IMG/VR virus record: IMGVR_UViG_3300011114_000294
Location: 1-30,695 of that record
Length of the DNA: 30,695 nt
Direction: 5' to 3' (one strand)
Source: a virus
The position numbers and the translations under genes are program-made. Shown here piece after piece: positions 1,362-8,594 of the stretch; position 1 is the stretch's first letter, and every line of letters starts with the position of its first letter. Under the pieces are notes generated by a model that saw only the letters and a list, made by a program, of their open reading frames with translations, ran no database searches and had not been told where the DNA came from.

Positions 1362-2266
1362 ATCATGGCTCACTATTCAGCGGAATAGGTGGCTTTGATT
1401 TAGCCGCTGAATGGATGGGATGGCATAACGAATTCCATTGCGAATGGATGCCATTTCCTCGAAAAGTTTTACATCATTATTGGCCTAATTCTAAAAGTTA
1501 TGAAGATATTACAAAGACAGATTTCACTATTCACCGAGGATCAATTGACATCCTCACAGGAGGTTTCCCATGCCAACCATACTCAAGCGCAGGTAAGCGA
1601 CTTGGGAAAGAGGACGAGCGACACCTCTGGCCGCATATGCTCAGAGTCATTTCAGAAGTTAAACCAACCTACGTTGTGGGCGAAAACGTTCGTGGACTTA
1701 CTAATTGGAATGGGGGAGTGGTCTTCGAAGAAGTGTGCGTTGACTTGGAAAGTGAAGGGTACACCGTACAACCGGTACTTCTGCCAGCTTGTGCCGTTGG
1801 CGCACCGCACAGGCGAGATAGAATTTGGTTCGTTGCTTCCAACTCCAACAGTATTCGACAGCACGAACGCGAGTGTAGAAATGAAGAGCTCTCAAATAAG
1901 CGAGGGGTCAATGCATTCAATGACATTGCCGAGAATGTTGAACAAGGGAATGTTACCAACTCCAACAGCTGGGGAATACAGACACGCTCACAGCGAGAAA
2001 TATTGGAACAATCGAATAGGAAAACGTCAGCGAGATTTAGGGATGTGGAATGCGGAAACAAATGGCAAAACTTCCCAACTCAATCCCCGATTTGTGGCGG
2101 AGATGATGGGCTTCCCACCAAACTGGACGGAATTACCTTTTCAAAGTGGCGAAATGAATCAATAAAAGGTTATGGAAATGCTATTGTTCCACAGGTAGCC
2201 TATCAGATTTTTAAGGTAATTGCTGAAATGGATGCAATAGAAAAGGCTCAACTGAAATTATTTTAA
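1358..2266 (+). CDS. DNA (cytosine-5) methyltransferase
   Basis: The 302-residue protein transfers a methyl group from S-adenosylmethionine to C5 of cytosine. Motif I (SLFSGIGGFDLA, residues 5-16) binds the cofactor. Motif IV is GGFPCQPYS (68-76) with catalytic Cys72. Motif VI is GENV (108-111), motif VIII is RRDR (152-155), and motif X is GYGNAIVPQ (271-279). The region between motifs VIII and X (about 160-240), where target recognition sits, is polar and low in complexity. A second reading frame of 221 codons is nested in this gene (1500-2165). It starts on the ATGA overlap with the HTH gene and is followed by a terminator. No cognate restriction enzyme is visible, so it probably protects phage DNA against host restriction. 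Confidence 0.96.
   Translation: MNHGSLFSGIGGFDLAAEWMGWHNEFHCEWMPFPRKVLHHYWPNSKSYEDITKTDFTIHRGSIDILTGGFPCQPYSSAGKRLGKEDERHLWPHMLRVISEVKPTYVVGENVRGLTNWNGGVVFEEVCVDLESEGYTVQPVLLPACAVGAPHRRDRIWFVASNSNSIRQHERECRNEELSNKRGVNAFNDIAENVEQGNVTNSNSWGIQTRSQREILEQSNRKTSARFRDVECGNKWQNFPTQSPICGGDDGLPTKLDGITFSKWRNESIKGYGNAIVPQVAYQIFKVIAEMDAIEKAQLKLF
1500..2165 (+). CDS. Nested overprinted ORF inside the methyltransferase gene
   Basis: A 221-codon frame lies wholly inside the methyltransferase gene on the same strand, in the +1 frame relative to it. The product has protein-like features rather than shadow-like ones. It has LPTPT twice (residues 113-117 and 152-156), an earlier WSSKKCALTWKVKGT segment (74-88), and LNPRFVAEMMGFPPNW at 194-209. 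The last resembles the N-P-x-F-V-x-x-x-MGFP-x-x-W motif near the C-terminus of some phage Dcm-like proteins. Over the same bases the methyltransferase frame reads as low-complexity polar sequence. The ATG at 1500 has no clear ribosome site. I infer real dual coding, but codon-level selection has not been tested. Confidence 0.55.
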   Translation: MKILQRQISLFTEDQLTSSQEVSHANHTQAQVSDLGKRTSDTSGRICSESFQKLNQPTLWAKTFVDLLIGMGEWSSKKCALTWKVKGTPYNRYFCQLVPLAHRTGEIEFGSLLPTPTVFDSTNASVEMKSSQISEGSMHSMTLPRMLNKGMLPTPTAGEYRHAHSEKYWNNRIGKRQRDLGMWNAETNGKTSQLNPRFVAEMMGFPPNWTELPFQSGEMNQ

Positions 2267-2683: not shown

Positions 2684-3536
2684 AAATGTCATAGTCACAA
2701 CGTGTAAAAGCGGTGATAAATTCTTAATGATGTCCGATGTGCATTGGGATAATCCTCATTGCGACAGGAAGCTATTAAAGGCTCACTTAGATAAGTGCCT
2801 AGCTGAAAATATCTACTTCGCTGTTAACGGTGATTTGTTCTGCTGTATGCAGGGCAAGTACGATCCAAGGCGCAATAAGAATGATATTAGACCGGAGCAC
2901 AATGTAGCTAATTATTTAGATGCCTTAGTTAATACTGCAATAGATTGGTTTAAGCCATACGCTCACTTACTTGTATTCGTGGGTTATGGTAATCATGAGA
3001 CTGCTATAATTAAGAACTGTGAAACTGATTTAATAGAGCGCTTTGTAAGTGGATTAAACAGAGAGGCAGGTACTAATGTATTGGTGGGTGGCTATGGCGG
3101 TTGGTGGATTCACAGAGTAAGTAGAGGAAAGAGCAGCTGCTTTACTTTTAAAACTAAATACTACCATGGATCAGGAGGAGGAGGAGTAGTTACGAAGGGA
3201 GTAATTCAGAATAACCGAATGGGTGTAATGATAGATGGGGCAGATTGCATTTGGAGTGGCCACGTGCATGAGCTTTATCATCACGCTGATATGGTAGAGG
3301 AGTTAAGTTATAGTCCGGGTAATAGCTATAGAATTAATATGCGCTACGTGCATCATATTAGAACAGCAAGCTATAAAGAGGAATATGATGAAGGGTACAT
3401 GGGCTTTCACGTGGAAAGAATGCGACCTCCTAAGCCATTAGGTGCTTATCTATTAGAATTAAATTTAGAAAGAGTTAGAACACCTGTAGATTCTCACATC
3501 ATTGTACCTAATTTTGTACAATGGCGGGACAAATAG
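2658..3536 (+). CDS. Calcineurin-like metallophosphoesterase
   Basis: The 292-residue protein has the full set of di-metal phosphoesterase motifs in order: D-x-H-x-D as SDVHWD (Asp27, His29, Asp31), NGDLF (Asp59), GNHE (residues 111-114), a His at 170 (YYHGSG), and GHVH (201-204). Enzymes of this fold hydrolyse phosphomono- or diesters with Mn, Fe or Zn; the substrate here is unknown. A glycine-rich GSGGGG loop follows His170. Its 3' end overlaps the terminase start by 16 bp. Similar phosphoesterases often sit beside phage terminases, which suggests a role in DNA metabolism or packaging. The family call is strong; the substrate is open. Confidence 0.93.
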   Translation: MITSYREGRNVIVTTCKSGDKFLMMSDVHWDNPHCDRKLLKAHLDKCLAENIYFAVNGDLFCCMQGKYDPRRNKNDIRPEHNVANYLDALVNTAIDWFKPYAHLLVFVGYGNHETAIIKNCETDLIERFVSGLNREAGTNVLVGGYGGWWIHRVSRGKSSCFTFKTKYYHGSGGGGVVTKGVIQNNRMGVMIDGADCIWSGHVHELYHHADMVEELSYSPGNSYRINMRYVHHIRTASYKEEYDEGYMGFHVERMRPPKPLGAYLLELNLERVRTPVDSHIIVPNFVQWRDK

Positions 3537-4840
3537 ATTATAATTTTAAGCCACTAACGAGGCAATCAGAAGCACTTAAATTCTTATCGGTAGACTCAGA
3601 CGTTGAAACTATCCTTTATGGAGGAGCAGCAGGAGGAGGTAAGACTATGCTCGGCTGCATGTGGCAAATTCTTAGGCGCTTAAAGTATCCAGGTACGAGG
3701 TCTCTCATAGGCCGAGCCAAGTTAGATACGCTTAAAAAAACTACAATGGCTACTTTCTTTCAGGTGGCTCATGAGATAGGATTAAAGGCAGGCGAAGATT
3801 TTATTTATAATCAGCAGAGTCATATTATTAAGTTTAGTAATGGCTCAGAAATTATACTTGCCGATTTATTTTTGTACCCATCAGATCCGATGATGACGGA
3901 TTTAGGTGGCCTTGAAATTACAGATGCATTTATTGACGAAGCTACAGAGATAACTGAGAAAGCTTATTCTATTGTAAGCTCACGTATACGTTATAAGCTT
4001 AATGAGTTTGGGCTTAAGCCTAAGATTCTGCTCACGTGTAACCCATCGAAGGGATGGATATACAATCAATTCTACTTACCCTATAAGAATCAAAACTTGC
4101 CTGCTCACAGAGCATTCGTGCAGGCACTACCTGGAGACAATATACACTTACCCGATAGCTATGTAACAAGCTTAACCCGATTGCCCGAAGCGGATAGGAA
4201 GAGACTGTTAGAGGGAGATTGGGAATTTGATAATAGCTCAGATAGATTATACATGTATGACGAGCTGATGCGCTGCTTCAGAGAGCCAATGAATGTTGGA
4301 GAGGGATACATAACTGCAGATATAGCGCGATTAGGAAAAGATAGAACTGTGCTATGTGTATGGAAAGGTTTAAGCTGCATTGATATAGTAGTGCTTAAGC
4401 AAAAGAGACAGGATGAAGTAAAGGCAGAGATACAGCGCTTAATGAATGAGCACAGTGTTAGGCTATCTAACGTGCTTGCCGATGCTGATGGGGTAGGCGG
4501 TGGCCTTGTTGACAGCTTACGATGCAGAGAATTTATGAATGGTAGTAAAGCTGTAAGAGGTACTCAGTACATGAATCTAAAAGCAGATTGTTACTTTCGT
4601 TTGGGCGAGCTGATAGATAAGAATGAGATTACCTTCCCTGTTAGATATCAGGAAGATATTATTAAAGAGCTTGAGCTAGTGAGAAGAGTAGATCCTGATA
4701 AGGAGGGAAAGCTAAGAGTAACATCTAAGGATACCATTAGCCAGCGCACCGGAGGGATCTCTCCCGATATAGCAGATGCTATTATGATGCGAGCCTACTT
4801 TGAGCTGAATAGAAACTACACTAAATACGCTTTTATCTAA
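3521..4840 (+). CDS. terL: Terminase large subunit (TerL)
   Basis: This 439-residue packaging motor pumps DNA into the prohead and cuts it. The ATPase domain has Walker A GGAAGGGKT (34-42), Walker B AFIDEATE (Asp139, Glu140) and coupling motif LLTCNPS (170-176). The C-terminal RNase-H-like nuclease shows ITADIARLGKDRT (Asp267), ADADGVGG (Asp321/Asp323) and SPDIADA (Asp416/Asp419), the three expected acidic clusters. Length is normal for the family. It overlaps the phosphoesterase gene by 16 bp and is followed by about 500 bp of non-coding DNA. The likely small subunit is 3.3 kb downstream (8187) rather than adjacent. Confidence 0.96.
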   Translation: MAGQIDYNFKPLTRQSEALKFLSVDSDVETILYGGAAGGGKTMLGCMWQILRRLKYPGTRSLIGRAKLDTLKKTTMATFFQVAHEIGLKAGEDFIYNQQSHIIKFSNGSEIILADLFLYPSDPMMTDLGGLEITDAFIDEATEITEKAYSIVSSRIRYKLNEFGLKPKILLTCNPSKGWIYNQFYLPYKNQNLPAHRAFVQALPGDNIHLPDSYVTSLTRLPEADRKRLLEGDWEFDNSSDRLYMYDELMRCFREPMNVGEGYITADIARLGKDRTVLCVWKGLSCIDIVVLKQKRQDEVKAEIQRLMNEHSVRLSNVLADADGVGGGLVDSLRCREFMNGSKAVRGTQYMNLKADCYFRLGELIDKNEITFPVRYQEDIIKELELVRRVDPDKEGKLRVTSKDTISQRTGGISPDIADAIMMRAYFELNRNYTKYAFI

Positions 4841-7846: not shown

Positions 7847-8190
7847 TACCAGCACAGCTTGAATCAGTAGGCACGCGGAAAGATAAGACTCTTAAACTTA
7901 CCTTTGGTACTAACGAGCTCACACCAGCACAAGCTGCTGAACTGTTCGGTACAGCCAATCAGTTCGGTTACTTAGCTTTTAAAGATGAGAGCTTCAGGAA
8001 AGAAGAGTTAGATGCTGTAGAATCGCTTAAATCAGAGTTAGAAGATACTCTCAAAAAGCCATCGCAGAGATTGAGGGGTATTTTATTCAGATGCTATGAG
8101 GCTGATAGTGAAGGATTTGTTACATTTGCTAAATACTATGATAGCAAGATGGAGCAGTTAATAACACACTTTAAGAATAAGTTAGCATGA
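7831..8190 (+). CDS. Hypothetical protein upstream of TerS
   Basis: The 119-residue protein opens with a beta-rich part (KTLKLTFGTNELTPAQAAEL) and continues as helices with a PSQRLRGILFRCYE segment near residues 77-90. It has no signal peptide or membrane span and no motif known to me. The frame overlaps the upstream gene by 16 bp and the TerS-like gene by 4 bp. A start at ATG 7837 (MLLIPAQL) is equally possible. Position suggests a DNA-packaging or morphogenesis accessory. Confidence 0.8.
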   Translation: MQMLLIPAQLESVGTRKDKTLKLTFGTNELTPAQAAELFGTANQFGYLAFKDESFRKEELDAVESLKSELEDTLKKPSQRLRGILFRCYEADSEGFVTFAKYYDSKMEQLITHFKNKLA

Positions 8191-8594
8191 GCGAGGAGCC
8201 TTCACAAAATCTAACGATTAAAAAAGATGCTATGCTTCAGGCACTTACAGCAAGTCTTGGTAACGTAACTGAGGCAGCTGAGAAGATAGGCATCAGAAGA
8301 GAAACGCATTACGCTTGGCTCAAAGATGATCCTGAATATTCAGCTGCTGTGGCTTCATTAAAGAATGTAGCTTTAGACTTTGCAGAGTCGCAGCTTAAGA
8401 AGCTAATGGAAGGAGCGGAGAGGCAGGCGCTCACCCATGATGGGGAGATAGTAACTATTAAAGATGCACCTAACACAAGTGCTATAATCTTTTACTTAAA
8501 GACTCAAGGCAAGCAGCGAGGATATATCGAAAGGCAAGAGCTGAGCACAGAGATAAAGAGCATTAACATAACCATAGACGGTACAAATATTTAA
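8187..8594 (+). CDS. Terminase small subunit-like HTH protein
   Basis: The 135-residue protein has an N-terminal HTH at about residues 16-50: ALTASLGNVTEAAEKIGI, then RRETHYAWLKDDPEY. This resembles phBC6A51-type HTH domains of small terminases. A helix follows (FAESQLKKLMEGAE), then a conserved-looking TSAIIFYLKTQGKQRGY segment and ERQEL. In the terminase small subunit family, such proteins recognise the packaging site and recruit TerL. It is 3.3 kb away from terL, with the nuclease/sigma operon and the structured region between. It overlaps the previous gene by 4 bp. Role inferred from domain and size; another DNA-binding role is possible. Confidence 0.75.
   Translation: MSEEPSQNLTIKKDAMLQALTASLGNVTEAAEKIGIRRETHYAWLKDDPEYSAAVASLKNVALDFAESQLKKLMEGAERQALTHDGEIVTIKDAPNTSAIIFYLKTQGKQRGYIERQELSTEIKSINITIDGTNI

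Follow-up and report, generated by a model that had tools for sequence, protein, structure and literature searches.

The C5 methyltransferases M.EcoHK31I and M.AquI have the targets YGGCCR and CYCGRG, respectively, and the multispecific phage C5 methyltransferases of the SPR and phi3T type carry modular recognition domains within a single chain. Lee et al. are said to have reported in 1995 that the small gene of M.EcoHK31I is nested within the large gene in a different frame. M.EcoHK31I consists of two polypeptides, of which the small one contains motif IX alone and the large one contains motifs I–VIII and X and the predicted recognition domain (PMC3404938); judging from the title of a 1995 paper cited there, both proteins are needed in vitro. 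M.AquI is a split C5 methyltransferase, the small polypeptide of which holds the distal variable region and motif IX together with motif X (PMC3404938).

The window analysed here, the whole 30,695-nucleotide stretch of IMG/VR record IMGVR_UViG_3300011114_000294, is a 30.7-kb phage contig carrying terminase, portal and head genes. An earlier note had described a 221-codon open reading frame at 1500–2165 inside a C5 methyltransferase gene; this frame is present at a +1 offset, and its length exceeds chance in synonymous shuffles. The methyltransferase frame is referred to as alpha and the nested frame as beta. With a probability of about 0.88, the product of the locus is a heteromeric C5-cytosine DNA methyltransferase composed of two overprinted subunits and resembling M.EcoHK31I. 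As in the published description of that enzyme, the large subunit has motifs I–VIII and X and lacks motif IX, the small subunit has motif IX and its gene is nested; unlike in M.EcoHK31I, selection points to beta for recognition and not to the large subunit, the window beta has tandem LPTP modules and the pair is phage-borne. Two polypeptides with motif IX in the small one are also found in M.AquI, but in the window alpha retains motif X and the overprinted beta gene lies entirely within that of alpha. Like the SPR and phi3T type, the pair has tandem interchangeable units, each about 40 residues long, that follow the catalytic part and precede motif IX; in the window, however, these units lie in the +1 frame, separate from the catalytic motifs, and their reading of DNA is putative. 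The layout has already been published for M.EcoHK31I, the one studied bacterial enzyme known to have it, and the inner gene is annotated in a few phage records; the spread of the arrangement, the selection evidence for recognition in beta and the LPTP modules shuffled among phages are new as far as searched. No description of the overlap in phages was found in the literature searched, and searches of plasmids and bacteria did not turn up M.EcoHK31I itself.

Materials and methods

Relatives were gathered by a search of IMG/VR with beta and by a separate search with the alpha N-terminus only; the latter is unbiased towards beta because of this choice of query. The pooled relatives were reduced to a non-redundant set of 106 genes, including 69 from the alpha search, eight from phage records and the window itself. 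Overlap-aware omega values were calculated with a simplified OLGenie-style implementation from 46 disjoint pairs, which were chosen and aligned on alpha and should not favour beta. The comparison sample consisted of 51 C5 methyltransferases from general Bacillota and Bacteroidota samples.

Results and discussion

Table 1. Features of the alpha/beta locus in window coordinates; the designation of subunits follows the proposed two-subunit reading.
Feature	Positions	Strand	Basis
Alpha subunit gene, C5-cytosine DNA methyltransferase, 302 aa	1358..2266	+	Pfam, phrog_363, alignment, AF2
Beta subunit gene, ATG start, 221 aa, +1 frame, wholly inside alpha	1500..2165	+	
Beta start codon, alpha Tyr48 (TAT) plus the following G	1500..1502	+	TAT preference
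Alpha motif IV, GGFPCQPYS, catalytic Cys72	1559..1585	+	Invariant in alignments
Beta conserved core WSSKKCALTWK, over alpha catalytic motifs	1719..1751	+	
Alpha motif VIII, PHRRDRIWFVA	1805..1837	+	Alignment
Beta LPTP module 1, type common to 58 betas	1836..1952	+	Module clustering
Alpha variable polar segment, nearly unconstrained, predicted disordered	1844..2062	+	Omega about 0.7, low pLDDT
Beta LPTP module 2	1953..2078	+	Module clustering
Beta motif IX-like element LNPRFVAEMMGFPPNW	2079..2126	+	Near-invariant; aligned to M.HhaI 267–294
Alpha motif X, ESIKGYGNAIVPQVAYQIF, mostly past the beta stop	2156..2212	+	Alignment

The catalytic frame

Alpha matched Pfam DNA_methylase (2.7e-46; cut-off 22 bits) and, in PHROG, phrog_363. 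Motifs I–VIII and X are present, motifs I, IV (PCQ), VI (ENV), VIII and X being placed in the alignment. Motif IX was absent from the alpha chain both in the alpha alignment and in the bacterial loci and sits in the +1 frame instead, so that alpha alone is not a complete canonical enzyme. The AF2 model of alpha, with a pLDDT of about 90 or higher at residues 1–70, matched the large domain of M.HhaI only. The segment from about residue 163 to 240 is polar, as had been noticed for residues of about 160–240, and is predicted to be disordered (pLDDT 28–43 at residues 171–240 and low across 165–249). Alpha contains no constrained counterpart of motif IX or of the putative DNA-recognising part.

The nested frame

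All of the sequence elements named in the earlier note were found in beta: LPTPT at residues 113–117 and again at 152–156, WSSKKCALTWK at 74–84 and LNPRFVAEMMGFPPNW at 194–209. Within the core, Trp74, Ser76, Cys79, Leu81, Trp83 and Lys84 are near-invariant in 97 betas. Beta matched phrog_1008, labelled 'DNA methyltransferase' (2.5e-22; PHROG), which was also matched by the betas of Lacticaseibacillus, Paenibacillus and Bacteroides phages and of phage C72C1; searches against Pfam, NCBIfam and PDB sequences gave no match, leaving the N-terminal part without a known domain. The AF2 model of beta alone was poor (mean pLDDT 51.8) and showed neither its fold nor the position of a recognition domain.

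The C-terminal pattern of beta is close to LNPxFVExMMGFPxxWT. Profile comparison placed the beta element on residues 267–294 of M.HhaI, which include motif IX GKTRKLHPRECARVMGYPDSY, in a short alignment that is weak but specific (E 0.0018, 15% probability, 28 columns). A motif of the [LM]MGFP type was found in 79 of 80 betas and in none of 80 alphas from bacterial genomes; since these loci had been collected with a motif IX pattern, its presence in the betas is expected, but its absence from the alphas and the constant offset are not. In the comparison sample, beta was found at +1 in two of the 51 C5 methyltransferases, both of which lack an in-frame motif IX. The 49 others have no beta; a simple pattern detected an in-frame motif IX in 29 of them, and the four pattern misses that were inspected also have the motif (TVREYARIQTFPD and similar). 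In-frame motif IX and beta are mutually exclusive among the sampled C5 methyltransferases.

Conservation and distribution of the overlap

The beta search yielded 80 IMG/VR loci, all with the methyltransferase frame at the +1 offset, in which beta usually starts 142 nt downstream of the alpha start. Throughout the 106 non-redundant relatives the +1 frame is open, over 172–379 codons, and the +2 frame is of chance length. When the alpha codons were shuffled synonymously, the +1 length of the window was reached in 0 of 300 trials and that of any of the 106 relatives in at most two of 300. The frame is likewise intact in bacterial genomes, where beta lies over alpha at +1 in 80 of 80 loci; by record title, these belong to Pseudomonadota, Desulfobacterota, Bacillota, Acidobacteriota, Chloroflexota, Bacteroidota, Parcubacteria and others. 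The beta profile was found in four of 299 genomes of a Bacillota sample and eight of 274 of a gammaproteobacterial sample; both counts include a centre genome that had been picked because it was beta-positive. The distribution of beta is widespread but sparse.

Several variants of the arrangement were observed. In L062:1085-1985 both frames are disrupted close to the 3' end by an indel in the variable region, so that alpha is truncated, beta continues into the motif X of alpha and motif IX lies in the third frame; it is probably not a simple sequencing error because the sequence is identical across four contigs (the others being L063, L064 and L083). A second alpha subtype (L251, L252, L255, L256, L258 and L259), with an N-terminal YYNE...WLR extension and the motif CHFFAGIG, occurs in Escherichia, Rhodobacter, Pseudomonas, Vibrio and Klebsiella phages and pairs with a divergent beta that has a Ser-rich N-terminal part and is also at +1. 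Rhodobacter, Klebsiella, Vibrio and other phages gave matches limited to the C-terminal half of beta; a single-frame fusion was considered for these and rejected, all those read being +1 overlaps. The Roseovarius chromosome OX638333.1 carries five near-identical alpha/beta copies (L210–L214), which may reflect a prophage present in several copies or an artefact of assembly.

Selection on the two frames

The omega of beta (dNN/dNS) was 1.10 (0.86–1.5) upstream of the overlap, 0.43 (0.36–0.51) over the catalytic overlap, 0.19 (0.16–0.23) over the variable part and motif IX, and 0.78 (0.54–1.12) downstream of the overlap; it is well below 1 inside the overlap only. The corresponding values for alpha (dNN/dSN) were 0.06 before the overlap, 0.11 over the catalytic part, 0.66 over the variable part and motif IX, and 0.06 after the overlap, and those for the +2 control frame ranged from 1.28 to 1.67. 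A larger, non-independent set of pairs gave concordant values, with alpha at about 0.7 in the variable part. From these regional values, selection between motifs VIII and X acts mainly on beta, which is under strong purifying selection there, alpha being close to filler; the low pLDDT of the variable part of alpha agrees with this reading.

Outside the overlap the third codon position of alpha is the most variable (0.31 before and 0.34 after), and its rate of change falls to 0.17 over the catalytic overlap, so that the methyltransferase frame is constrained at its synonymous sites within the overlap. In the motif IX segment the most variable position is the first of alpha, which is the third of beta (0.31 versus 0.24 and 0.18). 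The nested open reading frame is confirmed as real and selected, and the proposal that a single DNA stretch encodes two proteins under selection is borne out by omega and by the conservation of the frame.

Beta start codon

In 68 of the 69 relatives in which a following G makes an ATG possible, Tyr48 of alpha is encoded by TAT. The other Tyr codons of the same genes comprise 376 TAT and 428 TAC, and with a base other than G after it, the Tyr48 codon is TAC in 17 cases and TAT in five. The start codon of beta is under selection. Among 27 loci of the Bacillota type, 23 have a Shine–Dalgarno-like sequence upstream of the beta start that was chosen, where synonymous resampling predicts 14.5, and 13 have a stronger match (5.1 expected), an excess that is somewhat inflated because the starts were picked by the best Shine–Dalgarno score.

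LPTP modules

Each beta contains, after its conserved N-terminal part and before motif IX, one to five modules that open with 'LPTPxAxD' (274 modules across 106 betas, with a median of 39 residues). A [TSN][LIVM]xx-hydrophobic pattern closes 132 of the 274, compared with 63 expected. As many as 58 betas have one module type in common, which appears at three positions and with 18 kinds of upstream and 25 kinds of downstream neighbour. In 1313 pairs with the same module type and both neighbours different, identity was 0.78 in the beta frame versus 0.45 in the alpha frame of the same bases; this contrast is biased by the clustering on beta, a bias from which the omega values are free. In size and shuffling the LPTP modules resemble the recognition domains of the multispecific phage C5 methyltransferases, and by analogy they would be target-recognition domains that read DNA. 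Whether beta serves as a swappable target-recognition cassette is an evenly balanced question: phages may switch methylation specificity by shuffling these modules of about 39 residues, with the alpha frame kept as an open, disordered linker.

Proposed mechanism and alternative explanations

In the proposed two-subunit enzyme, alpha would supply AdoMet binding and the chemistry through motifs I–VIII and X, and beta, translated from its own internal ATG, would contribute motif IX and the DNA-recognising LPTP modules. The two proteins would form a complex with enzymatic activity, together making up one orphan phage methyltransferase; no restriction enzyme was recognised among the neighbouring genes scanned in the window. 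Its role is probably to shield phage DNA from host restriction, or some other marking. Of the 'dual function' suggested in the earlier note, the two products hold, and they are better described as two subunits of one enzyme; the suggestion of a partner or specificity-like subunit is supported as a reading, partnership and specificity being what we infer from the sequences.

That the open +1 frame is a by-product of chance or codon usage, with only 'shadow' conservation, has next to no probability. In the catalytic part, the strong conservation of alpha would be enough to give the +1 frame a conserved appearance, but the signal peaks where alpha is least conserved, and the synonymous-shuffle null, the +2 control and the region-specific omega values rule this explanation out. 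Programmed frameshifting within alpha, by which the +1 frame would be reached without a start of its own, is very unlikely. A single +1 shift would indeed restore the order of motifs I–VIII, variable region and motif IX; the fusion product would, however, be devoid of motif X, and the constraint on beta extends far upstream of motif VIII, over the catalytic overlap, where a shift after motif VIII has no need of it. The selected start codon and the Shine–Dalgarno-like sequences often found upstream of it in Bacillota also speak for separate initiation.

It is unlikely, though less so than frameshifting, that beta is a selected but separate protein, for instance antirestriction or regulatory, and not a methyltransferase subunit. 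Such a role would be compatible with an N-terminal part that has no known domain, and the interaction of alpha with beta is itself deduced. On the other hand, beta bears exactly the motif that is missing from alpha, it is always found in cis at a constant offset, and the sampled methyltransferases with a motif IX of their own have no beta; the precedent of M.EcoHK31I, as far as the title of the 1995 paper conveys it, requires both proteins in vitro. These points favour two subunits of one enzyme.

Annotation and implications

Long conserved overprinting on the same strand is seldom documented in prokaryotes. Gene finders usually omit the inner gene, and most of the phage records examined annotate one frame, in some cases as hypothetical. 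Gene product 63 of phage Lily ('g62 internal gene') lies at +1 inside a C5 methyltransferase and has the LPTP and motif IX elements; ORF30 of phage K1G ('Mte8-like') is also at +1 and belongs to a divergent alpha/beta subtype. Both inner genes are annotated in their records without a stated mechanism. In Cylindrospermopsis phage Cr-LKS3 and Pseudomonas phage PMG1 (L254 and L255) the beta frame is annotated as the methyltransferase and the catalytic alpha is omitted. Should methylation require both proteins, many C5 methyltransferases predicted in phages and prophages are half enzymes as annotated, and alpha cloned alone would be wrongly scored as inactive. The locus illustrates how two frames can share out selection along one gene and gives a testable prediction of where target specificity resides.

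Two further observations concern the surroundings of the locus. A 64-residue open reading frame at 1167–1361 on the + strand, the stop codon of which overlaps the alpha start (ATGA), looks helix-turn-helix-like by eye and had no match in Pfam or PHROG; it is possibly a regulator of the methyltransferase. The gene for the large terminase subunit (3521–4840) precedes a small-subunit-like gene (8187–8594) by about 3.3 kb, the reverse of the usual gene order.
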